Of a stretch of DNA of 64,000 bases, positions 1,461 to 15,103 are shown piece by piece. Position 1 is the stretch's first letter, and every line of letters starts with the position of its first letter. The notes beneath the pieces are model-generated. The model saw only the letters and a list, made by a program, of their open reading frames with translations. It searched no databases and was not told the origin of the DNA. Source of the stretch: Stigmatella erecta (GTDB taxonomy: Bacteria > Myxococcota > Myxococcia > Myxococcales > Myxococcaceae); assembly GCF_900111745.1 (NCBI RefSeq), contig NZ_FOIJ01000002.1, forward strand, positions 1-64,000, read 5' to 3'. Position numbers and translations under genes: made by a program.

Positions 1461-1839
1461 AACTGCGGCAAGATGGAGAAATGCTCTACCGTCTCGTGTT
1501 GGGCTTATCTCAGATCTTGTAGACACGGGACGAGTACTACTCGGTCACCTCCACGGGACCCAGGCGGCTTTTTCCGCTGGGAAGCGCCCTCCGGATACCG
1601 AAGGGCTTCAGGAGAGACAGCTCACTCGCACGTATCTCGCAGTGAGCCTGCCCCGGTTTTGTGGACACCCCTGTGGATCCTGGACTCATGCGGACGGCGG
1701 CACGAGCGGGGCTCACCTGCTCGCCGCTTCTGAATCACACGAAGGGCGGGAGAGCCCCAAAATCAGGGTAAGCCCACACCCTCATCGAGGAATCTATCGA
1801 CAGGGTAGGCGGCGGGTTTCCATTCAACTGCTCTCGGCG
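1461..1839. other. Intergenic region between two accessory genes
   Basis: I see no convincing gene here; short frames in all six phases lack coding character. The only notable element is the IS3-like terminus at 1643-1669. The base composition is less GC-rich than the core regions of this window, consistent with a patchwork of acquired fragments. Confidence 0.5.
1643..1669 (+). repeat. IS3-like terminal inverted-repeat remnant
   Basis: The segment begins TGAGCCTGCCCCGGT and continues TTTGTGGACACC. IS3-family ends commonly read TGA-x-C-T-G-C-C-C-C followed by a GTGGACAC motif. No transposase frame follows, so at best it is a solo end. A related but diverged segment is at 21054-21084, and a 15-base identical piece at 5416-5430. 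A 15-base match alone can occur by chance in GC-rich DNA of this length, so the call rests mainly on resemblance to IS3 ends. Confidence 0.35.
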
Positions 1840-2226
1840 TTACTCGGGGGTAGGTGAATCTACTTCCTGCGGCGTGAAGGAGGGCACGAGTGTCAGCTTC
1901 ATCTCCGCCCGCTTCCCGACGGCTAACGTCTTCCCAGCCACCTTCACGAGAGTTCCCCAGGAAGACAGCTGTTGGTTCCGCAGCCACTCCTCAGCACGTG
2001 CCATATCTGGGAAGACATGTGCAGGATCGACTCCGGAGGGAGCGGCTCTGTCAGTGTCGCGGAGGTACTCACGAAAAGCCGTGAGCTGGCCGGTCACATA
2101 AAGATAGTGGAGCGCGTTCGCTGCGGTACTGAGCGCATCGCGCGCAGTGTCAGGAACATGTTCTACCGCGCCCTCAAGGGCATGGCACAGGGATTCAAAT
2201 TCGAAGTCTTCGGGTCGTGTCGTCAA
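1840..2226 (-). CDS. Small acidic cytosolic protein, partner of the upstream lipoprotein gene
   Basis: This 128-residue protein has no signal peptide or membrane segment. It is largely helical, with a stretch reading HVFPDMARAEEWLRNQ followed by a likely beta-rich tail (GTLVKVAGKTLAVG). It starts 11 bases after the stop of the lipoprotein gene at 2238-2774 on the same strand, so the two are probably co-transcribed. From memory, such a lipoprotein plus small soluble partner recurs in myxobacterial genomes and resembles toxin/immunity or adaptor arrangements. That role is inference; no catalytic motif is visible. Confidence 0.6.
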   Translation of the reverse strand: MTTRPEDFEFESLCHALEGAVEHVPDTARDALSTAANALHYLYVTGQLTAFREYLRDTDRAAPSGVDPAHVFPDMARAEEWLRNQQLSSWGTLVKVAGKTLAVGKRAEMKLTLVPSFTPQEVDSPTPE

Positions 2227-2237
2227 GAGCCTGCTCC

Positions 2238-2774
2238 TCAGAGTGATGCGAGAGGAATCAGCACCAGCACGCCCGCCCCTGCCGTGCCAATGACAAAGGC
2301 AGCCCCAGCCACTAGGACAATGCTACCCACCAGCACCTCCGCCTTGTTCCGGTTGAGCCAGTCCTGGGCGGTTTTCATATCCGAGAACGTCAAAGGCTGA
2401 GCCTCCGTCTCCTTTATACATTGCATGTACTCTTCCCGGCATTTCTCCGTGCAGTAGTTGTGGTGTTGCGCGCCACCACGCTTGCGTGGCCAGGGAGGTT
2501 TCGCGTTCCAGCACCGTTCGAAACAAGCGATCTGCTCTGCCGCACAGTTGCGTGAGCCAGTGCCCACGAACACGGCCTCGAAGGTGCGCGATTCGCGAGG
2601 GGCTTGCCTCGACTCATGCGGCAGCGCTCCCCCCTTAAGCCGTACCGCCTCAGAGTTGCCACGCAACATGGGCTGGGCGTTTTGGCATGCCGCGAGCACG
2701 AGAAGCAGTGCGGTTGAGGAGCGTCTGAATTGAATACTGCATACATGGGTAACTGATGATGAAGAGGTTCTCAA
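2238..2774 (-). CDS. Cysteine-rich lipoprotein with C-terminal hydrophobic segment
   Basis: The predicted 178-residue product carries a lipobox (LLLVLAAC, Cys at about residue 30) after a basic stretch, so it should be lipidated. A Cys-rich module follows at about 75-120 (NCAAEQIACFERCW, then YCTEKCREEYMQC), then a DWLNRNKAEVLVG linker and a glycine-rich hydrophobic segment over the last 30 residues. The in-frame start would be TTG at 2774 with poor ribosome-site support; an ATG nearby lies in another frame, so the 5' end is uncertain. This layout resembles the N-terminal carrier part of myxobacterial polymorphic-toxin lipoproteins, but no toxin domain follows. Confidence 0.6.
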   Translation of the reverse strand: MRTSSSSVTHVCSIQFRRSSTALLLVLAACQNAQPMLRGNSEAVRLKGGALPHESRQAPRESRTFEAVFVGTGSRNCAAEQIACFERCWNAKPPWPRKRGGAQHHNYCTEKCREEYMQCIKETEAQPLTFSDMKTAQDWLNRNKAEVLVGSIVLVAGAAFVIGTAGAGVLVLIPLASL

Positions 2775-3024
2775 GCGGCCCCATACTGCCAGTTAGAGCC
2801 GAGGCTCGGTACTCAATACTTGGTGGAACGGAGTTCGAACCTTCTCACGCGGGCGCGGACCGGAAGCTGGAGGACGCGAGCCCTGCGCCTGAGAGGATGT
2901 TGATCAGGGGCAAGCAGGCAGGCTGCTTTCGGGCAGCATTCCTCAGCGTCTTGCGCGTACCGGGCCGCTGGTCAAGCCCTGGTAGACGGTGGAGGGCCCA
3001 GTGCGCCAAGGAGCAGTCTTGAGC
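2775..3024. other. Gene-free spacer upstream of the lipoprotein gene
   Basis: About 250 bases with no supported gene. On the minus strand a short frame contains a basic stretch (GTRKTLRNAARKQPA), possibly a decayed gene end, but I cannot assign it. Confidence 0.35.
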
Positions 3025-3063
3025 GGTTCCCGGTTCCCGCCGTAGGGGCGGGAACTGGGAACC
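3025..3063 (-). terminator. Long hairpin after the excisionase-like gene
   Basis: Two 17-base arms (3025-3041 and 3047-3063) pair with one mismatch around a 5-base loop. The left arm reads GGTTCCCGGTTCCCGCC. It lies 14 bases beyond the stop of the minus-strand gene at 3077 and is the likely terminator for it, although no U-run is present. Confidence 0.6.
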
Positions 3064-3076
3064 ACCGGCCCGAGCA

Positions 3077-3328
3077 TCAGCGCCGCCCCCGGGCGAGAAG
3101 CGCCTCAAGCGACGCCACTGGAATGCGGATGGAGCCTCCCACCCACACCCGCTCCAATTCTCCGCGCTCCAAGGGCGCATAGACCGTGGCCCGGCAGACG
3201 GCCAGTTCCGCCGCCACCTCGCGCACCGTGAGCAGCGGCGGGGCCGCTGGCCGCACCAAGGTCCGCACCACCGGCGCACCACGGCCAGTCGAAAGGGTGG
3301 AAACCGTGCTAAGCGGCACCGCCGCCAT
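3077..3328 (-). CDS. Excisionase-like MerR/HTH_17 DNA-binding protein
   Basis: The 83-residue protein ends in a winged-helix excisionase domain: LLTVREVAAELAVCRATVYA is the HTH (about residues 31-50), GGSIRIPVASLEALL the wing and last helix, then ARGRR. Proteins of this type direct site-specific recombinases during excision of prophages and integrative elements. The ATG at 3328 gives the standard family length; longer upstream extension frames run into tRNA-derived sequence. The gene lies 82 bases inside a 3' tRNA fragment (3411-3452), exactly where xis sits in tRNA-integrated elements. No integrase gene is visible. A shortened copy is at 20976-21052. Confidence 0.75.
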   Translation of the reverse strand: MAAVPLSTVSTLSTGRGAPVVRTLVRPAAPPLLTVREVAAELAVCRATVYAPLERGELERVWVGGSIRIPVASLEALLARGRR

Positions 3329-3410
3329 AGGCTGCGAATCTCTTGTACTTTCCGCAGGTTGCGAAGCCCTGCCAAGGCTTACCACCCCTTGCCAACCGCC
3401 CCCACCCCGG

Positions 3411-3452
3411 CTCATAACCGATTGGTCCCCGGTTCGAATCCGGGAGGGCCCA
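3411..3452 (+). pseudogene. 3' half of a tRNA gene with CAT anticodon (probable att site)
   Basis: The segment starts in the anticodon loop (CTCATAA), continues through CCGAT and variable TGGTC, has a full T-arm (CCCGG TTCGAAT CCGGG) and ends AGGGCCC plus discriminator A. This is the 3' half of a tRNA-Met or tRNA-Ile2 type gene. The D-arm and 5' acceptor strand are absent: the bases before the loop match the expected anticodon stem only for about three positions. Such fragments arise when an element integrates at the 3' end of a tRNA gene, leaving the displaced host end at the far junction. The excisionase gene on the left and a hairpin on the right fit that reading. Confidence 0.8.
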
Positions 3453-3463
3453 CTCGCCGTAAC

Positions 3464-3507
3464 CCCTCCCCATGCCTCGGGATTTTCCTCCGGGGCGTGG
3501 GGGAGGG
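3464..3507 (+). terminator. Hairpin downstream of the tRNA fragment
   Basis: CCCTCCCC (3464-3471) pairs with GGGGAGGG (3500-3507), with further pairing in the CGG/CCG inner part around a GATTTTCCT loop. It is probably the original transcription terminator of the tRNA gene, now left attached only to the 3' fragment. This supports the view that sequence to the right is old chromosome. Confidence 0.55.
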
Positions 3508-3544
3508 AAGCTCCCCTCGCCGAGCTCCGCACCACCGATGCACC

Positions 3545-3745
3545 ATGCCTCCGACTGACGTGGCCCCCTGCTCCTTGCCTTTGATGCCGTTGGTGGCTCG
3601 ATTCGGAAAGGATGGCAGGGTCAACAAAGCGGTCCGCCAGGACACGTTGGAACTCGTCCGCAAACACTGCACGCAGGACAAGTTCAACAGGTACTGCCGT
3701 CATGGCAGAGAAAACACTCCAGAATGCATCGAGGAGTGCAAGTGA
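3545..3745 (+). CDS. Small Cys-containing protein, possibly a remnant
   Basis: The ATG at 3545 opens a 66-residue frame with no signal peptide. The C-terminal half is charged and Cys-bearing (KHCTQDKFNRYCRHG, then PECIEECK), suggesting two disulfides or a metal site. It has no recognised family and could be the shortened end of a larger exported protein. It overlaps by four bases (GTGA) the start of a tiny membrane peptide gene, which argues that the pair is translated together. Confidence 0.4.
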   Translation: MPPTDVAPCSLPLMPLVARFGKDGRVNKAVRQDTLELVRKHCTQDKFNRYCRHGRENTPECIEECK

Positions 3746-3837
3746 ATGGGCGTACAGCACTGGCCATCCTCGTGGGCCTGTTGCTGCCGCTGCCACTCGT
3801 CTTCTTGCTGAGCGGTGGGCTGCTGCCCGCAGAGTAA
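3742..3837 (+). CDS. 31-residue single-pass membrane peptide
   Basis: A GTG at 3742 overlaps the TGA of the preceding frame. The product is almost entirely one transmembrane helix (ALAILVGLLLPLPLVFLLSG) ending LLPAE. An upstream in-frame GTG at 3736 is also possible. Coupled stop/start and a clean hydrophobic helix favour a real gene, but such short frames can arise by chance and no homologue is recognised. Confidence 0.35.
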   Translation: MNGRTALAILVGLLLPLPLVFLLSGGLLPAE

Positions 3838-3921: not shown

Positions 3922-3949
3922 GCGGAGCATGATGCGCCTCATGCTCCGC
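3922..3949. repeat. Perfect 11-bp inverted repeat overlapping a transposase-end remnant
   Basis: GCGGAGCATGA (3922-3932) and TCATGCTCCGC (3939-3949) flank a 6-base spacer. In the forward frame the same DNA encodes MMRLMLRRLA followed by TGA (3929-3961), the same ending as the transposase tail at the left edge. It may therefore be the worn end of a second copy of that IS5-type element. As a hairpin it could also act as a terminator between the small genes and the minus-strand gene at 3982. Confidence 0.4.
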
Positions 3950-3981
3950 CGCCTCGCCTGATGGCTTCTTGACTCTGCCCG

Positions 3982-5061
3982 CTAGAAATTAATGAAGGCG
4001 TACAACGCGCGGTGGTTCGACTTCGTACCACTCACCGTGTAGTCGATCGGCGACGGTTGCACGGCCCCTTTGACGAACAGGTAGTCGATCTTGGATGCCC
4101 CGTTCGTGGCGGCCGTACCGTAACCGGTCATGCCATGCTCGCTGAGCGTGGTCGAGGGGATGCTCTTGCGATTCGCGTCGATGCCCACGATGCGGATCGT
4201 CGATGCGTTCATCAAGCGGGTCGCGTCCGCCCCGAGGTGGATACCGGTCCCCTGGATGCCGGTGTCCTTGTCACCCGCGCACGCGTTCGCCGAGTTCTCC
4301 TGCGGAAGGTGCATGGTCGCCGCGAACACCGTGGTCCCGGTCGCCTTGATGGTGAAGCGCGCCGCGATGGCGCTGGTGCGCTTCCACTTGTACTGATCCG
4401 TGGTGTCGGGATCGCTGTCCGGCGGCTTGTACAGGGTGCATCCAGCCCCCCCGTTGTACGCCGTTCCCGGCTTGAGCCACCCGGCACTCCAGTAGGCCGA
4501 GACGTCGCCTGCGGCCAGACTCAACCGCCCAGAGTTGTAGATGATGCCGTTGGTCTGCTTCTTCTTCAAGTCGCCCAACGACTGATCACTGCACTTGTGG
4601 GTACTTCCCCAGGACTCGGGATCGGACCAGACAACGATCGCCTTGTACGTCCCCGCCGGCAGCCCGAACATGGCGGAGAGCTGGTCGGCGTAGGCCTCTG
4701 CCTGCCCGGTACCGCGTATCTGCTGCACAATGAGCAGATCGGGAGCGACCACTCCGGAGGTACCGGTCTTCCCAGCGTCGTCGACGAGTATCGACTTCAG
4801 GTGGTCCGTACCCGAGACGCGGGTACAGGTCCCGTCGGAGTTGTTCATGACCAGGTTCTCGATGTTGTTGTTGTACACCCGCAGCACCCGATCCGTCGCC
4901 TGTCCCAACACCCTGGCGTCCGTGTCCGCGTCCGCGGGCCGGAGCGCGGCCAATGTGTTCGGCGTCGGCGCGTCCGTCGGCGCGGTGTCCGCCTCCATCC
5001 CGCCGCACGCCATTAGCAGGGAACCAAAAGACAGGCTGGTGATGAACGTCTTCATCTTCAT
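3982..5061 (-). CDS. Endonuclease/exonuclease/phosphatase-family lipoprotein
   Basis: The 359-residue protein begins MKMKTFITSLSFGSLLMACGG, a signal peptide with lipobox (LMAC), so it is a secreted or outer-membrane lipoprotein. The mature part has the EEP (DNase I-like) pattern: YNNNIENL near the N-terminus, an acidic/His core (TMHLPQ), a GIDAN segment equivalent to GDFN, KIDYLFV, and C-terminal SNHRAL for the catalytic SDH. It is probably a metal-dependent nuclease or phosphodiesterase acting outside the cytoplasm. AGAGGA precedes the chosen ATG; a longer frame begins at 5091. It is monocistronic, with no immunity partner visible. Confidence 0.75.
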   Translation of the reverse strand: MKMKTFITSLSFGSLLMACGGMEADTAPTDAPTPNTLAALRPADADTDARVLGQATDRVLRVYNNNIENLVMNNSDGTCTRVSGTDHLKSILVDDAGKTGTSGVVAPDLLIVQQIRGTGQAEAYADQLSAMFGLPAGTYKAIVVWSDPESWGSTHKCSDQSLGDLKKKQTNGIIYNSGRLSLAAGDVSAYWSAGWLKPGTAYNGGAGCTLYKPPDSDPDTTDQYKWKRTSAIAARFTIKATGTTVFAATMHLPQENSANACAGDKDTGIQGTGIHLGADATRLMNASTIRIVGIDANRKSIPSTTLSEHGMTGYGTAATNGASKIDYLFVKGAVQPSPIDYTVSGTKSNHRALYAFINF

Positions 5062-5415
5062 GAGATGAATCCTCTGGGAAGGTGCCAGCACGGAATGGGT
5101 GGCCCAAGCCCATTAAAACACGATTACAACATTTTTCCAGATAAACCTGCACTGGCACTTTTATCGGCCCAATCCTGATTCGCCGTCATGCGTCATCCCT
5201 GTTCCACCGGCCCCGGGCCACGGAGCGCAGGAAGGACAGACAGCAGACACACGCCTGCCCTGCCCTGCCGCCTGCCCAGGCTGCCCTCGCTCAGGGGCTT
5301 GGTGCGCACTCGCCGTGGGCAACCCCAGGGGCTCCAGAATCGCGCTCTCCCCTCCTGCTCCCTTCACGGACGCCAAGACCCGCCACCTGCCTCCACACCT
5401 CAAACACGCGAACAC
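5062..5415. other. Gene-free spacer right of the EEP lipoprotein gene
   Basis: The stretch just upstream of the minus-strand EEP gene (to about 5160) is AT-richer, with runs such as ATTAAAACACGATTACAAC and ATTTTTCC, and probably holds its promoter. From about 5160 to 5415 no coding frame is convincing; the minus-strand frames are read-through of the broken gene that follows. Confidence 0.4.
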
Positions 5416-6130
5416 TGAGCCTGCCCCGGTCAACATTCGCCGCTCTGTGTCCGCCAGCATGGCGAAGGCGTTTTTGAGCTTGCTCTGGAAAGTTAGGCAA
5501 TGACTGCACGTAGATGCAGGCGATGTGATGCTGGCTCCAGGGATCAGGAAACCCGAGCCGCTTGAGTTGCCGCAACCAGGGGCCAACGTCCTGCCATGAA
5601 CGCCCCTTGGAGAATGCCTCGTTGAGCACACCGAGCGCAGTTAAACGTTTGAGGTGAGTACGTTCGGCGGGGGTACGCGCTTCGCGTAGAAACTGCTTCT
5701 CAAGATCCTTGAGTGCGGCCACCTGCGCCTCGAAAGGAACCTCACCAAAGCTCATTCCCAGGATCAGCCATTCGCGCTCTTGGGCCACCTGTTGCCACCC
5801 ACCACGACGGGCGCGCGTCATTGCGATTTGGCGTCCCCGAGCGGACTGACCACCATTGTTACTGCCCATTTTGCTCCGCAGCGGTGTAACACGCCCAGCC
5901 TCGACTGCCGTCTGGCTCATCCGAGCCAGGAGTTCGGCCGCAGATTCGAAGTATCGCCCCTCGATACGCGCCACCTCCGCTTCGGTGGACACGATCGCTG
6001 GGCTGAACTCCGCCGAGGAGCTGCCTCGTGTGACGCGCGTCACAGAAAGTCCGTGAGCTGCTTCACGGAAGCGCGAGGCCAGGGCGCGCAGTCTTGCAAC
6101 CAGAGAACGGGCATCCCGCTCTCTCTTCTG
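5416..6130 (-). pseudogene. Broken gene of a myxobacterial hypothetical family
   Basis: On the minus strand a frame from about 6130 encodes a charged helical protein with a segment reading MSFGEVPFEAQVAALKDLEK, then WLRQLKRLGFPDPWSQHH and IYVQSLPNFPEQAQ. At a run of five T (5471-5475, five A in the sense strand) the frame slips: the continuation FAMLADTERRM lies in the next frame. Four A would join the two parts. The frame then runs into the 15-base IS3-like sequence at 5416-5430. No start with a ribosome site is visible before the divergent kelch gene, so the 5' end also looks lost. The function is unknown. Confidence 0.5.
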
Positions 6131-6142
6131 CAAGGAACCTGT

Positions 6143-8395
6143 ATGTCCCCCGTCCGTCTCCTCGGCCTCCCTCTCCTGCTGCTGGTGTGGCTCACCGGCT
6201 GTCACTCAGCACAGCCCTCCGGGACCTCCGCTACCGGCTCGGTGCGTCTGGCCGCCTCCACGCGCCAAGCCCTCTCCGCCAACGCTATCTCCCGCGTCGC
6301 CGTCACCTCTTCTGCGGCGGACATGCCCTCGATCACCGTCGAACTCGCACAGATCGATGGGGTCTGGGGCGGTGTCATCGGCAACATCCCCGCGGGCCCC
6401 GAGCGCCTCTTCCTGGCCCAGGCCTTCGACGCCGGAGGCGCTTTGCTGTACGAGGGACAGGCCGGGCACGTCACGGTGGTGGCCGGCGAGGTGACGCTCG
6501 TCACGCTCACCTTGCAGGACGTCTCCGCCCCCGAGCCCTACGAGAATGAGGCGCCCCTCATCGACTCGGTGGTGGCCGCGCCGCTGGTGGTGGCGCCGGG
6601 CGGCAGTGTGACGCTGGCGTCGGCTGCCCACGATCCGAACCCGGGAGACACGCTGGCCTACGCGTGGACGGCCAGCGCGGGCAGCTTCGCGGCTCCCTCG
6701 GATGCCAGCACCACGTGGAGCGCTCCGGCAGACAACGGTCCGGTGATGCTCACGCTCACGGTGAGCGACGCGCGGGGCGCGGCCTCCTCGGTGTCGCTCG
6801 TGGTGAACGTCACGGCGGGAGAAGGTGGGGCGGTGCTGGACGTGCGCTTCAACAGCCGTCCGGCGGTGGGGGGCTTCACCTCCTCGGAGTCCCAGCTCGA
6901 GGTGGGCGAGAGCACCCTGCTCACGGTGTCGGCGGCGGACCTGGACGGGGACGCGCTGAGCTACCAGTGGAGCGCCTCGTGCGAGGGCAGCCTGCAGGAC
7001 CTGGGCGCGGGCCTCGCGCGCTTCACGCCCAGCGCTCTGCCCGCCGCGGCGTGCAACAACTGCCAGCTGAGCGTCAGTGTCTTCGACGGACGCGGGGGCC
7101 AGACGAGCGCGACGCTCGCGCTCTGCGTGACCGAGCCCACGGTCCACGCCCTGCCTCCCCGGGTGATCCGCTCCTACCAGTCGAGCCTCACGGCCCGGGC
7201 GAACCAGCAGCTCGTCTTCGAGGTCGTGGCCAGCGACCCGCAGGGAAGTGCGGTGAGCTTCCAGTGGGGCGCCACGAGTGGCGTGTTCGGCGCTTCCGCG
7301 GACTCGGCCACCAGCAGCCGGGTGGTCTGGACCGCGCCGGCCTGCATCAACGGCAGCACCCAGGGCTCGCTGAGCGTCACCCTCACCAACGCCGCGAACC
7401 TGACGGCCGTCCAGACCTTCTCCGTGACGGGGCTGCCGGACTGCACCTCTTCCAGCCATTGGGTGTCCGTGGGCGCCATGCTGGAGCCCCGGATTCGCCA
7501 CCAGGCGGCGCTGCTGCCCTCGGGGAAGGTGCTCGTCGTGGGAGGAAATGGGCCGGGCGGAAACAAGGCCTCTGCCGAGGTGTATGACCCGGAGACTCGG
7601 ACCTGGACGGCCACGACCGCCATGCGCCAGACCCGGACCTACTTCAGCGCGGTGTCGCTGCCCTCGGGGCAGGTGCTGGTCTCGGGAGGCGAGCAGGGCT
7701 GGGACAGCTACGCCACGGCGGAGCTGTACGATCCGGCGGCCGGCACCTGGTCGATGGCCGCTCCGATGAACGTGTCCCGCAAGGGCCATACCCTGACGGT
7801 GCTGCCCTCGGGCAAGGTGCTCGCTGCCGGAGGCACCACCGCGACGGCGGAGCTGTACGATCCGGAGACCGGAACCTGGACCCGCACTGGCTCCATGAGC
7901 ATGTCCCGCTACGGGCATACGGCCGTGCGGCTGCTCTCGGGGAAGGTGCTCGTCATCGGAGGTTGGAACGCGACGGCGGAGCTGTACGATCCGGAGACCG
8001 GCTCCTGGACGGCCACGGGTTCTCTGAGCGTCTCCCGGAACCCGGGGCACACCGCCACGCTGCTCCCTTCGGGCAAGGTGCTCGTCGCGGGCGGCAACGT
8101 CGATGGTGGCACGGTGGCGGAGCTGTACGATCCGGAGAACGGCTCCTGGACGGCCGCGGGCTCTGCGCTGAATGCGCATGACGGGGCCACGGCCACGCTG
8201 CTGCCCACGAACAAGGTGCTCATCGTGGGTGGCAACATCGATAACAGCGCGGCGGCGGCGCTGTACGATGTGGCCTCTGGGACCTGGGCTCCTGTCGCTT
8301 CGATGGGACCGGCGCAGTACGGGCACACCGCGACGCTGCTGCCGCACGGCAAGGTGCTCTTCACCAGCCGCGCTACGGTGCTCTACCAGCCCTGA
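6143..8395 (+). CDS. Kelch-repeat lipoprotein with Ig/PKD-like domains
   Basis: The 750-residue protein starts MSPVRLLGLPLLLLVWLTGC, a lipoprotein signal with lipobox LTGC; AAGGA lies upstream. Residues about 25-130 form a carbohydrate-binding-like beta domain, and about 140-440 hold three PKD/Ig-like domains (patterns D-x-L-x-Y-x-W and L-x-V-S-D). From about 445 to the end there are six kelch-like blades with the recurring motif AELYDPxTGTW and LLPSGKVLVVGG, forming a beta-propeller. It probably sits on the outer membrane and binds proteins or glycans. The blades are nearly identical in DNA, suggesting recent internal duplication. An alternative frame start at 5780 is rejected because the signal peptide lies at 6143. 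Confidence 0.85.
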   Translation: MSPVRLLGLPLLLLVWLTGCHSAQPSGTSATGSVRLAASTRQALSANAISRVAVTSSAADMPSITVELAQIDGVWGGVIGNIPAGPERLFLAQAFDAGGALLYEGQAGHVTVVAGEVTLVTLTLQDVSAPEPYENEAPLIDSVVAAPLVVAPGGSVTLASAAHDPNPGDTLAYAWTASAGSFAAPSDASTTWSAPADNGPVMLTLTVSDARGAASSVSLVVNVTAGEGGAVLDVRFNSRPAVGGFTSSESQLEVGESTLLTVSAADLDGDALSYQWSASCEGSLQDLGAGLARFTPSALPAAACNNCQLSVSVFDGRGGQTSATLALCVTEPTVHALPPRVIRSYQSSLTARANQQLVFEVVASDPQGSAVSFQWGATSGVFGASADSATSSRVVWTAPACINGSTQGSLSVTLTNAANLTAVQTFSVTGLPDCTSSSHWVSVGAMLEPRIRHQAALLPSGKVLVVGGNGPGGNKASAEVYDPETRTWTATTAMRQTRTYFSAVSLPSGQVLVSGGEQGWDSYATAELYDPAAGTWSMAAPMNVSRKGHTLTVLPSGKVLAAGGTTATAELYDPETGTWTRTGSMSMSRYGHTAVRLLSGKVLVIGGWNATAELYDPETGSWTATGSLSVSRNPGHTATLLPSGKVLVAGGNVDGGTVAELYDPENGSWTAAGSALNAHDGATATLLPTNKVLIVGGNIDNSAAAALYDVASGTWAPVASMGPAQYGHTATLLPHGKVLFTSRATVLYQP

Positions 8396-8600: not shown

Positions 8601-9450
<850 letters not shown>

Positions 9451-9575
9451 ACTTTCCGCACCGAGAGGCATTCCGCCCCCACCCTGGCTCATGAGGCCGG
9501 TGAGAAGGTGCCGGCGAGGGACACGTTGTGCTCATTGTCCCCAGGACACGCCCCTCACCCCGGGCGGTTTGACGC

Positions 9576-11251
9576 ATGATGCACCCCATGTCGCGACCGC
9601 CTCCCCTGCCGGGCACCTCCCTGTCCTCCGCCCTCGGAGAGCTGGCGCGCGCCCAACAGCGTGCCGGACGCTCCGCCATGGCGGGACTGGCGCTGCTCGG
9701 CGTGGTGGCCCTGGCCAGCCCCCTGCTCGCCTACCGGGAGGATCTCCAGAACGCCCGCGAGGAGATGCTCGGCAACCTCTCCAGCCAGGCCCAGGTGCAG
9801 GCCGAGGCGCTGGGCGTGCACCTGGGGCTGCTGGAGGCGGAGCTGCGCCGGCTGGCCGAGCACCCCCAGCTCATCCCCGAGGATGGCTCCTCGGGCCCGG
9901 AAGTGGCCATGCTGGACAGCGCCTTCCACCACTCGCCCCTCTTCTCCGAGGGCGTGGCCCTGCTCACTCCCGATGGGCGCTGCGTGTGGAGCGACCCGGC
10001 CCAGATATCGCTGGGGGATTCTCCCCTGGACAGCCGCCCCTGGTTCCGCCGGGTGCTGGCCGAGGGCGTCTCGGACATCAACCTGCTGGAGGGGACGGGG
10101 GGGCCGCTGGTGGTGGCGGTCCCCATCACGCACGACGGCAAGGTAGCGGGCCTGCTGGTGGGCGAGCTGCGCGCGGGGGCACGTCCCCTTCCGGGCGTCC
10201 GCTCGGGGGGCGCGGACCTGTCGCTGCTGCTGGATGGGGAAGGCCAGCTCCTGCTGCCCGTGCCCGCGCCGAACTTCGCATGGAGCGCGGAGCGCGCCTC
10301 GCGGCTGCGCGCCCTGGCCGAGGCCCCCGGGCCCCTCGTGTGGGACGGCAAGCGCATGCTGGGCGCGGCGGCCCATGTCTCCGTCCCGGGCATCAACGGC
10401 ATGCTGCTGGCCGTGCTGGAGGACGAGGAGCGGGACATCGCGCGGCTGCAGCGCCGCTTCCTCGGACAGCTGCTCTTCCACATCGCCCTGCTGGGCAGCA
10501 CCCTGCTGCTGTTCACCTTCCTGCTGCGCCGCTCGTACCTCTCGCTGCTGGCGGCCGAGGAGCGGCTGCGGCACCAGGAGACGATGGCCGCGCTGGGCGC
10601 CGCCAGCCAGCTCATCGCCCACGAGGTGAAGAACGCCCTCAACGGCATCCAGGCGGCCCTGTCGCTGCTGCGGCCCGCCGCCACCGCGGGGGAGGTGGCC
10701 CTGCCCGCGCTGCGTGCCCAGGTGCAGCGGCTGGGGCACCTGGCCCGCTCGCTGCTGTCCTTCGGCGCCCCGAGGGCCGCCGCCCTGCGCCGCCCCTGCG
10801 AGCTGCACCTGCTGGTGGAGGAGGCCCTGCAGTCGGTGCGCCTGGTGCCGGAGTCCGAGGACGTGCCCGTGCAGGTGACGCTGCAGGAGGGCCTCACCGC
10901 GCAGGCGGACCCGGCGCTGCTGGTGTCCGCCATCGACAACCTGGTGCGCAACGCGGTGGAGGCGGGCGCGGTGGCGCGCGACACGGGCCTGCGTCCCTCG
11001 CCCTGGGTGCGGGTGACCCTCACGCGCGAGGCCAACGAGGCCATCCTGCGGGTGGAGGACAACGCCGGCGGGGTGGACACGGACCTGGAGCCACGCCTGT
11101 GGGAGCCCTTCGCCACCGCGCGCGCCAAGGGCGTGGGCCTGGGCCTGCCCATGGCCCGGGCCGCCGTGGAGTCCCATGGGGGCCAGCTCACCTATCACCG
11201 CCTGCCCGATGGCAGCCTCTTCACCCTGCGGCTGCCCCTGGAGAGCACCCC

Positions 11252-11255
<4 letters not shown>
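9576..11255 (+). CDS. Membrane sensor histidine kinase (Cache-type sensor)
   Basis: 559 residues: TM1 at about 33-53, an extracytoplasmic Cache/PAS-like sensor (about 55-295), TM2 at about 297-318, then the kinase core. The H-box is SQLIAHEVKNALNGI with His349; the N-box is DNLVRNAVEAG near 454; the ATP lid reads DNAGGV and GVGLGLPMA. The HEVKN form of the H-box is typical of NtrB-like (HPK4) kinases that pair with sigma54 activators. The stop overlaps the next ATG (ATGA), so kinase and regulator are co-translated. The ligand is unknown; the downstream SulP and carbonic anhydrase genes suggest bicarbonate, sulfate or another small anion. Confidence 0.85.
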
Positions 11256-12595
<1,340 letters not shown>

Positions 12596-12637
12596 GCGGG
12601 CAGCACTTCAAGATTCTTATTCAAGGTTCTTTCATTG

Positions 12638-12680
12638 CCCCCGGGCCTACTTCACATTTTTTAAAGTCCCCGGGGCCTTC
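12638..12680 (+). promoter_or_regulatory. Candidate activator-binding repeats
   Basis: Two similar GC-palindromic units, CCCCCGGGCCTAC (12638-12650) and CCCCGGGGCCTTC (12668-12680), are spaced 30 bases apart, about three helical turns. They lie 40-80 bases upstream of the sigma54 -24 element. That is the usual place for enhancer sites of NtrC-type proteins, though somewhat close. CCCCGGG words are common in this genome, so the assignment is tentative. Confidence 0.35.
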
Positions 12681-12718
12681 CCTCCCCGCCCGTCAGAGGG
12701 AGGCCCCCTTCGCACACG

Positions 12719-12734
12719 TGGCACGGCTCTTGCC
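12719..12734 (+). promoter_or_regulatory. Sigma54 (-24/-12) promoter
   Basis: TGGCACG, four bases, then TTGCC matches the sigma54 consensus TGGCACG-N4-TTGCW except for the last base. The GG and GC doublets have the obligatory spacing. It lies 76 bases upstream of the SulP start and just downstream of a sigma54-activator gene, so it is strongly placed to control the transporter/carbonic anhydrase operon. Confidence 0.85.
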
Positions 12735-12809
12735 CATCTGAGCCGGACACGCGCCCCATCTCCCGCGAGGAGACGCGGCGCCTTCCTTTGTGTGTGGAGG
12801 CTGAGAGAA

Positions 12810-14351
12810 ATGAAGTCCAACGAGCAGAAGGCTGGCTCCGCCAGCTCGCTCCGGACGGTGCTGGCCAGTGACTTGCCCGCCTCCCTGGTGGTCTTCCTGG
12901 TGGCCCTGCCGCTGTGCATGGGCATCGCCCTGGCCTCGGGCGCTCCCATCATGTCCGGGCTCATCGCCGGGGTGGTGGGCGGCCTGGTGGTGGGCTTGTT
13001 CGGCGGGGTGCCGCTGCTGGTGAGCGGCCCGGCCGCGGGCCTGGCGGTGATGGTGTTCGGCTTCATCAATGAGCTGGGCTTCGCCGCCACGTGCGCCGCG
13101 GTGGCCGCCGCGGGCGTCATCCAGATGGTGCTCGGCGGCGTGAAGGTGGCGCGCGCCGCGCTGGGCATCTCCCCGGCCGTCATCCACGGCATGCTCGCGG
13201 GCATCGGCATCCTCATCGTGCTGGGCCAGCTGCACATCGTGCTGGGCGGCGCGCCGCAGTCCAACGCCTGGGCCAACCTGCGCGAGCTGCCGGGGCAGAT
13301 CATGGACCTGCATGGCCCCGCGACGATCCTGGGCCTGGTCACCATTGGCATCCTGGTGCTGTGGCAGGTGATGCCCAACAGCCGCCTCAAGAAGGTGCCC
13401 GGACCGCTGGTGGCGGTGGTGGTGGGCTCGGTGGCCGCGGCGGTGTGGGGCGCGGACGTGAAGCGGGTGGATCTGGCCGGGAGCCTCTTCGAGAGCATCC
13501 AGCTGCCCCAGCTGCCCGAGAACTGGGGCGCCTTCGCGGCCGCGGTGTTCTCCCTGGCCCTGGTGGCCAGCGCCGAGTCGCTGCTGAGCGCGGTGGCCAC
13601 GGACAAGCTGCACACCGGCCCGCGCGCCAACCTGGACAAGGAGCTGTTCGCGCAGGGCATGGCCAACACCCTGTCCGGGCTGATGGGCGGCCTGCCCATC
13701 ACCGGCGTCATCGTGCGCAGCGCGGCCAACATCGCCGCGGGCGCCAAGACGCGCGCGTCCGCCTTCATGCACGGCGTGTGGATGCTGCTCTTCGTGTCGC
13801 TGCTGGGCTCCTACCTCGGCCTGGTGCCCCTCACCGTGCTGGCCGGTCTGCTCGTCCACGTGGGCGCCAAGCTGGTCAACATGCACCACATCCAGGAGCT
13901 GCGCCGGCGCGGCGAGCTCGCCGTGTACGTGGTGACGGTGGCTGGCGTGGTGGGCATCAACCTGCTGGCCGGCATCGCGCTGGGCTTCGCGGTGGCGGTG
14001 GCGCGGCTGCTGTGGCGGCTGGGCCGGGTGCAGGTGCAGGTGAAGCAGGTGGGTGAGGTGCACCAGGTGCGCGTGGGCGGCGCCCTCACCTTCGTGGGCG
14101 TGCCGCAGCTGTCGGCCGCGCTCGCCCAGGTGCCCAATGGGGCCCAGGTGGAGCTGGACCTCGCGGTGGAGACACTGGACCACTCCGGCTACGAGGCCCT
14201 GGAGAGCTGGTGCCAGAACCACCGCAAGACAGGCGGCAAGGTGTGGATGGAGCCGCTCGAGGAGGTGTGGGCGCGCAAGGGCTCCGCCTCCTCCCCCAAG
14301 TCCGTAGTGCCCGTTTCCGCAACCCCGACTCTCTCCTCGGAAAGTGCCTAA
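12810..14351 (+). CDS. SulP-family anion transporter (likely bicarbonate or sulfate)
   Basis: 513 residues with about 11-12 membrane helices, beginning LASDLPASLVVFLVALPLCMGIA, the conserved first SulP helix. Further SulP signatures are SGPAAGLAV, the AESLLSAVATD segment, and NTLSGLMGGLPITGVIVRS. The C-terminal ~90 residues form a short STAS-like domain (VRVGGALTFVGVPQLSAAL). It belongs to the inner membrane and probably imports HCO3- or another anion, possibly with Na+ as in BicA. GGAGG lies before the ATG. Its stop is two bases before the carbonic anhydrase start, a coupling that favours a bicarbonate role. A longer frame from 12492 overlaps the promoter and is rejected. Confidence 0.85.
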   Translation: MKSNEQKAGSASSLRTVLASDLPASLVVFLVALPLCMGIALASGAPIMSGLIAGVVGGLVVGLFGGVPLLVSGPAAGLAVMVFGFINELGFAATCAAVAAAGVIQMVLGGVKVARAALGISPAVIHGMLAGIGILIVLGQLHIVLGGAPQSNAWANLRELPGQIMDLHGPATILGLVTIGILVLWQVMPNSRLKKVPGPLVAVVVGSVAAAVWGADVKRVDLAGSLFESIQLPQLPENWGAFAAAVFSLALVASAESLLSAVATDKLHTGPRANLDKELFAQGMANTLSGLMGGLPITGVIVRSAANIAAGAKTRASAFMHGVWMLLFVSLLGSYLGLVPLTVLAGLLVHVGAKLVNMHHIQELRRRGELAVYVVTVAGVVGINLLAGIALGFAVAVARLLWRLGRVQVQVKQVGEVHQVRVGGALTFVGVPQLSAALAQVPNGAQVELDLAVETLDHSGYEALESWCQNHRKTGGKVWMEPLEEVWARKGSASSPKSVVPVSATPTLSSESA

Positions 14352-14353
14352 TC

Positions 14354-15058
14354 ATGAAAAAGCTCGTTCAGGGTATCCTCGACTTCCAGCGTCACAGCCT
14401 TCCCGCCTACCGCTCCACCTTCGCGCGGCTGGCCCATGGACAGACTCCCGATTGCCTGTTCATCGGCTGCGCCGACAGCCGCGTGGTGCCCAACCTCTTC
14501 GCGTCCACCAACCCCGGTGACCTCTTCGTCATGCGCAACGTGGGCAACATGGTGCCGCCCTCGGATGCCAAGGGCCTGTCCCTGAGCGATCGCTCCGAGG
14601 CGGCGGCCCTGGAGTTCTCCCTGCTCACCCTGCCGGTGAAGGACATCGTGGTGTGCGGCCACTCCGGCTGCGGCGCCATGAAGGCCATTCTGTCGGGGTA
14701 CAACGACCAGAAGACGCCCAACCTCAGCAGCTGGCTGGACGTGGGCCGTCCCGCCCTGGCCGCCCTCGAGCGCGGTGGGAAGGTCGGCGAGGGGCTGGCC
14801 CCGTATGACCGGCTCAGCCAGTACAGCGTGCTGCAGCAGATGGAGAACCTGAAGACCTACCCCCTGGTGCGCGATCGTCTGGCGGCAGGCACCGTGCGGC
14901 TGCACGGCTGGTGGTTCGACATCGGCCAGGCACGGGTGCACTCCTACCGTCCGGAGCTGGAGCGCTTCGTCCCCATCGATGAGCTCGAGGGAGAGCGCAT
15001 GCTCAAGGAGATGGAGCGGCCGAGCGGCTTGGGAGAGGCGTCCACCTCGGCCGCCTGA
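14354..15058 (+). CDS. Beta-class carbonic anhydrase
   Basis: 234 residues with all zinc and catalytic positions: Cys39, Asp41 and Arg43 in CADSR, His103 and Cys106 in HSGCG. It interconverts CO2 and bicarbonate in the cytoplasm. It starts two bases after the SulP stop, so transporter and enzyme are made together. SulP plus beta-carbonic anhydrase pairs, and even fusions, are known in several bacteria and are thought to manage inorganic carbon or pH. Expression is expected from the sigma54 promoter at 12719. Confidence 0.93.
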   Translation: MKKLVQGILDFQRHSLPAYRSTFARLAHGQTPDCLFIGCADSRVVPNLFASTNPGDLFVMRNVGNMVPPSDAKGLSLSDRSEAAALEFSLLTLPVKDIVVCGHSGCGAMKAILSGYNDQKTPNLSSWLDVGRPALAALERGGKVGEGLAPYDRLSQYSVLQQMENLKTYPLVRDRLAAGTVRLHGWWFDIGQARVHSYRPELERFVPIDELEGERMLKEMERPSGLGEASTSAA

Positions 15059-15081
15059 GCCTCCAGCGCTTGGAATCACCG

Positions 15082-15103
15082 CCGCCCATCCCTGGATGGG
15101 CGG
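15082..15103 (+). terminator. Hairpin ending the SulP/carbonic anhydrase operon
   Basis: CCGCCCATCC (15082-15091) pairs perfectly with GGATGGGCGG (15094-15103) across a two-base gap, 24 bases after the carbonic anhydrase stop. Confidence 0.65.

Follow-up and report, generated by a model that had tools for sequence, protein, structure and literature searches.

The window (the whole 64,000-nt stretch of Stigmatella erecta DNA analyzed in this study) comprises the first 64 kb of contig C2. Its positions 3077–3452 very probably represent attR, one end of a small integrative element that has inserted into a tRNA-Ile2(CAU) gene; the further features of this element are presented below according to the explanation that best accounts for them. 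Judging from sequence comparisons, the "excisionase" gene at this end is best interpreted as a C-terminal domain severed from an integrase of the Mx9 type.

tRNA fragment and attachment site

The attR core is a 3' fragment of the tRNA gene (3408–3452, + strand), identical along its 45 nt (rather than the 42 bases of the original prediction) to positions 29–73 of an intact tRNA (G000:C3:789460–789532). The complete gene was found upstream, on the adjoining contig C3, 5.4 kb before the contig end, where the original prediction had proposed to search for it. Exact identity between the two loci spans 65 nt (3408–3472); its left boundary is sharp and falls at the 5' arm of the anticodon stem (CGG|CTCATAA|CCG). 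In the 9.2-Mb, 47-contig genome the intact tRNA is the sole other copy of this 3' part of a CAT-anticodon tRNA; since no further copies were detected genome-wide at up to 3 mismatches, a chance origin of the fragment can be excluded. Neither ARAGORN nor Rfam identified a complete tRNA at the fragment site. The nearest E. coli matches of the tRNA are annotated as tRNA-Ile, which supports its assignment to Ile2(CAU) rather than Met. The terminator hairpin predicted beside the fragment was also confirmed (3464–3509, +; −35.6 kcal/mol, z −3.9), and it is present after the intact tRNA as well.

On its left side the core is preceded by a conserved element end (3366–3407, +), the P arm (..CCTTGCCAACC..CCCACCC), which abuts the core in most relatives. 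An arm-type repeat, GCACCAC-N3-GCACCA, is located within the P arm region, 143 bp from the core (3265–3281, +). The overall arrangement corresponds to that of tRNA-targeting elements: the intact tRNA marks one end and the 3' fragment, which has the same orientation, marks the other, and synteny with the related genome G003 connects these ends across a contig gap.

Second copies of the tRNA 3' part, starting at position 29 and preceded by CC (in one case CCT), were identified in about 20 of 96 genomes of the family, and two additional genomes (G007 and G010) also carry such a copy. These second copies follow a conserved arm (..CCTGCCAACC..CCCACCC). The same geometry was observed in some relatives, while in others the element is absent, and the recurrence of the break at position 29 upholds the prediction of an attachment site left by an element lying to the left. 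Multiple HTH_17 copies occur in several relatives, and two tRNA fragments in G086, as serial insertions would leave.

It is very improbable that the fragment arose by tandem duplication of a host block (the tRNA plus its flank) through homologous or IS-mediated recombination. This explanation draws on the homology extending beyond the tRNA (94% over 142 bp and 96% over 99 bp), on the IS copies present nearby and on the doubling of the flank block in G005 at 97–99.5% identity. However, base-by-base alignment of 10 genomes puts the break at one and the same nucleotide, tRNA position 29 (the G010 copy starts at position 30), and it is accompanied by the conserved arm and HTH_17. Moreover, integrases are encoded at the other end, arm sites lie on either side of the core, and the cargo has a low GC3, all of which argue for site-specific insertion.

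Extent, cargo and right flank of the element

Contig C3 ends inside the left end of an insertion sequence, and the right end of the same IS opens C2. The latter (1–90, +) is IS5-like and contains the transposase C-terminus (...IRLMLRRLA*) and the terminal repeat CGGCTCAACACCCTC; a full-length copy of approximately 1.0 kb is present in locus L094. In G003 the two sides are located on one contig: the C3 side comes first, followed by a copy of window 1643–3483 (98.5% identical) that ends in the same attR, and then by chromosomal DNA matching window 8723–14810. Since C3 and C2 meet inside an IS, and both sides are united in G003, we infer that the contigs are joined through the IS and that an element of about 9 kb lies to the left of the fragment. 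In G005, a complete genome, this right end occurs 28.8 kb after the tRNA, and in G004 the equivalent of window 8.7–15 kb is found within about 13 kb of the tRNA. The right end is 98% identical in G003 and G005, compared with 92–95% for the chromosomal flanks.

The ends of contigs C13 and C21 carry the same IS ends as C3 and C2. The target site duplication of the IS was rejected as proof of the join, because all four contig edges carry TAA and offer no discrimination. A search of relatives for the flank of C13, performed to settle the pairing, gave no match, and that for the C21 flank gave only short repeats.

Without the IS, the element is about 8.7 kb long. From the tRNA onwards it comprises a gene for a Cys-rich protein, a DUF2381 gene, two Ser/Thr kinase genes, the IS, an XRE/HTH_3 regulator gene (205–732, +; HTH_3 1.4e-10, GC3 0.73), genes for a 216-aa protein of no known family (810–1460, +), a 128-aa protein (1840–2226, −) and a 178-aa lipoprotein-like protein (2238–2774, −), the HTH_17 frame and attR. 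The last two of these proteins have no family match and are common to the elements of G003 and G005. The XRE regulator and the lipoprotein pair, predicted to be cargo, are indeed both situated inside the element. The element genes differ in base composition (GC3 0.62–0.77) from the chromosomal genes preceding or flanking the tRNA site in relatives (0.92–0.98), and their GC content is 0.62–0.65 vs 0.70–0.71.

The DUF2381 gene (a member of the M. xanthus paralogous family TIGR02268) followed by two Ser/Thr kinase genes forms a conserved block at the tRNA-Ile2 locus of the window genome (G000), G004 and G005 (L033:12621–16846). PADLOC matches of the kinases were limited to generic kinase domains, so no defence function is claimed for them. 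In G004 (L090:1818–7562), a 5.6-kb stretch matching window 9515–15082 is placed, inverted, between the tRNA and the Cys-rich/DUF2381/kinase block. The 28.8-kb tRNA-attR interval of G005 encodes TIR, Nmad2, two MazG-like, HMUDK kinase domain, UDG-like and IrrE-like proteins (L082:12168–17581, L083:412–3205), i.e. genes typical of defence or DNA modification.

The 3' side of the fragment, where the original prediction saw a host-type terminator, does not consist purely of host DNA. This side carries a relic of a P' arm site (3529–3545, +), separated from the core by 121 bp, as at attL (L033:11610), and a truncated copy, comprising the first 31 or so codons, of the Cys-rich gene located after the intact tRNA (3742–3837, +), presumably left behind by a second insertion or a duplication. 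Further to the right are a remnant of the same IS, containing the transposase C-terminus (3929–3968, +), and a gene encoding a 369-aa protein with no family match (3982–5091, −). In G005 the latter gene is duplicated together with the Cys-rich/DUF2381/kinase block, which occurs on both sides of the element (97.4–99.5% identity). The arm repeat was absent from sites lacking a second tRNA copy (G004, G001, G071 and G102). The simplest reading of this flank would be that related elements inserted more than once, or that a circle re-inserted next to an older copy, and that a deletion then occurred in the window genome. A large secreted repeat protein with seven repeats of approximately 45 codons is encoded between the attR remnant and the chromosome (5780–8395, +).

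Integrase and the HTH_17 frame

In relatives G085, G086, G061 (Archangium violaceum Cb vi76), G033 and G010, a tyrosine integrase of approximately 450 aa is encoded at attL, antisense to the tRNA. The last codons of its gene are the antisense tRNA 3' half and the stop codon comes from the tRNA 5' half; in G033 the N-terminal part contains an apparent frame-shift. At most loci examined for this family, the integrase gene has its 3' end antisense on a tRNA (Ile2, Pro, Arg, Asp or Gly). A second integrase of the family in G028 (L189, G028:C1:484863–486206) has a frame running antisense through tRNA-Arg and then tRNA-Asp. The family also occurs at tRNA-Pro in Myxococcus xanthus AM003 and Pyxidicoccus caerfyrddinensis (L163, L164), which constitute further hotspots.

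An integrase had been expected upstream of the window, but only the Cys-rich protein, the DUF2381 protein and the two kinases are encoded between the intact tRNA and the C3 end. PF00589 was matched neither on C3 beyond the tRNA nor within the initial 115 kb of C2, and a genome-wide search of G000 at E<=1e-40 revealed no integrase of the relatives' family. Beside the intact tRNA, the integrase tail alone is left (GAPVVRN...SGPSRIRTGDQSVMSRQL, antisense). At the same threshold the family was absent from five of the six same-genus relatives searched; the sixth (G006) has one such integrase, on another contig. Because the integrase body is missing both locally and genome-wide, the element is very probably a non-autonomous relic, in which att sites flank a region with no recombinase. 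A search for its free form in viral contigs yielded integrases of only 24–30% identity.

We consider it improbable that the C3-C2 gap of the assembly hides an integrase that would make the element autonomous, since in relatives the integrase gene directly abuts the tRNA, whereas here the Cys-rich gene stands behind the relic of the integrase tail. In addition, both contig edges fall within the same IS of approximately 1 kb, and G003 and G005 also lack an integrase of this family.

The excisionase-like frame (3077–3328, −; domain at 3080–3235) matched HTH_17 (PF12728, 1.6e-11) and TIGR01764 "excise" (34.1 bits, cut-off 28.8). The resemblance to excisionases that had been predicted is therefore genuine, while the status of an independent gene is not favoured: the frame is better read as the 3' end of the integrase gene of the element itself, detached from the rest upon integration. 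Among phage proteins, the window HTH_17 best matches the C-terminus of the Mx9 Int, and, as in the Mx9 control, HTH_17 adjoins the core opposite the integrase side. We reconstructed the circle by a script joining the two element ends. In G085, G086 and G061 this produced one open frame through the integrase, the core and HTH_17, with the HTH 112–117 aa past the core Met, while in G033 a stop codon appeared 7 codons on, in the linker. On the Anaeromyxobacter MAG contig L169, the integrase, a tRNA-Gly core and HTH_17 are contained in a single 549-aa frame (no terminal overlap indicating circularity of this contig was found). In L170 a frame change breaks the continuity of integrase and HTH_17.

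Comparison of the HTH_17 sequences between elements gave 42/16/125 differences at codon positions 1/2/3, and for the linker between the core and HTH_17 the counts were 88/119/121, by which the linker was rejected as a coding sequence. About 25% of shuffles would leave the linker open by chance. Ka/Ks of the window HTH_17 copy within the Ile2 group was about 0.08–0.16 (only in-frame comparisons with the window copy were used, and out-of-frame pairs were left out). These patterns indicate that the HTH_17 domain is kept as a protein under purifying selection, and that any conservation of the linker is at the DNA level. The linker repeat GCACCAC-N3-GCACCA recurs 121 bp beyond the core at attL. The window copy contains an ALLERG to APLERG change, which is possibly damaging.

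Alternatively, HTH_17 may be an independent excisionase gene at attR, similar to uoi of Mx8, expressed alone to promote excision. We regard this as the less probable reading, although a serious one: besides TIGR01764, the frame matches PHROG 66 ("excisionase and transcriptional regulator"), the linker lacks protein constraint, the frame is broken in G033 and L170, and the separate HTH_17 gene of Mx8, uoi, is annotated as an excisionase. On the other hand, the distance between the core and HTH is fixed at 172–184 bp in most Ile2 elements, the integrase-HTH frame is open in G085, G086, G061 and L169, and the Mx9 annotation places HTH_17 within Int. The sequence favours a link between HTH_17 and Int, and the domain may act inside a putative fusion protein, as a separate excisionase, or as each of these in succession. 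The G033 stop and the L170 frame change suggest that some members may encode HTH_17 in a cistron of its own.

Proposed mechanism and related systems

In the severed-domain reading, the integrase gene of these elements would extend across the attachment site, like those of Mx8 and Mx9. In the putative free circle it would run antisense through the tRNA 3' half (the core) and, by presumed read-through, into the C-terminal HTH_17. The integrase would recombine the circle core with the anticodon region of tRNA-Ile2, so that the tRNA is rebuilt and the integrase gene is cut at the core. Its catalytic part would remain by the rebuilt tRNA (attL), where the 5' half of the host tRNA would supply its final codons and stop, and the HTH_17 part would stay at attR, resembling a separate excisionase gene. 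By analogy with Mx8, the shortened integrase would be less active, favouring the integrated state. In the window genome the integrase body has been lost, its P'-arm tail alone being left next to the tRNA, and the Cys-rich/DUF2381/kinase block, followed by the IS, lies between the tRNA and attR; such a relic would be mobile only with an integrase supplied in trans. A more specific proposal, which we find rather doubtful, is that the cutting of the gene sets the direction of recombination: the circle-encoded Int-HTH_17 fusion would integrate, insertion would yield a short Int plus a separate excisionase-like HTH_17, and orphan elements would keep the HTH_17 end under selection for using integrases in trans.

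The integrase and attP of Mx9 were reportedly described by Julien in 2003. In the Mx9 record (AY247757.2), as in the severed-domain reading of the present family, a PF00589 tyrosine recombinase carries an antisense tRNA core inside its gene and a C-terminal HTH_17, which is located at aa 489–537, after 42 nt of antisense tRNA-Gly. However, the Mx9 core corresponds to tRNA-Gly positions 1–42 (5' half), whereas that of the window family corresponds to tRNA-Ile2 positions 29–73 (3' half), and at the recombinase level the identity is only 33%. Furthermore, unlike in Mx9, no phage structural genes were recognised in the 5–11 kb relatives examined, and the window element is devoid of an integrase gene.

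Mx8 Int/IntX (AF396866) is attributed to Tojo 1996 and Magrini 1999 in PMC6070905 and PMC4701971; according to the latter source, integration swaps a 112-residue Int C-terminus for 13 host-encoded residues. Mx8 also has attP inside the integrase gene at a tRNA (the tRNA-Asp core was found in this analysis), but its Int tail lacks HTH_17, and its HTH_17 protein, Uoi, is encoded separately upstream.

Islander sites of type A (anticodon-centred; PMC4383910) likewise combine an intact tRNA, an island and a 3' fragment, with crossover in the anticodon region, although Islander demands an integrase on the island and would reject the window element. Cis-mobilizable elements (CIMEs; PMC7563491, PMC5704250) have similarly kept their att sites, lost the recombinase and formed tandem arrays with related elements; the window genome differs in lacking a cognate integrase, and trans-mobilisation there is hypothetical. 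The complete relatives (5–11 kb, with integrase, XRE regulators and HTH_17) are similar to PICI/P4 phage satellites, as are the helicase-like ATPase of G061 and the weak primase zinc-ribbon match of G085, this placement being by resemblance only.

Splitting of the integrase gene is known from Mx8 and Mx9, and the present data are best read as the same phenomenon in small elements sharing one tRNA target across many myxobacteria. The analysis defines a tRNA-Ile2 integration hotspot in several genera of Myxococcaceae, with intact, decayed, tandem and empty versions. Genes annotated as "excisionase" that border myxobacterial tRNA islands may be cut-off tails of integrases, and the idea of integrase control by gene splitting, derived from Mx8 and Mx9, becomes testable outside phages.
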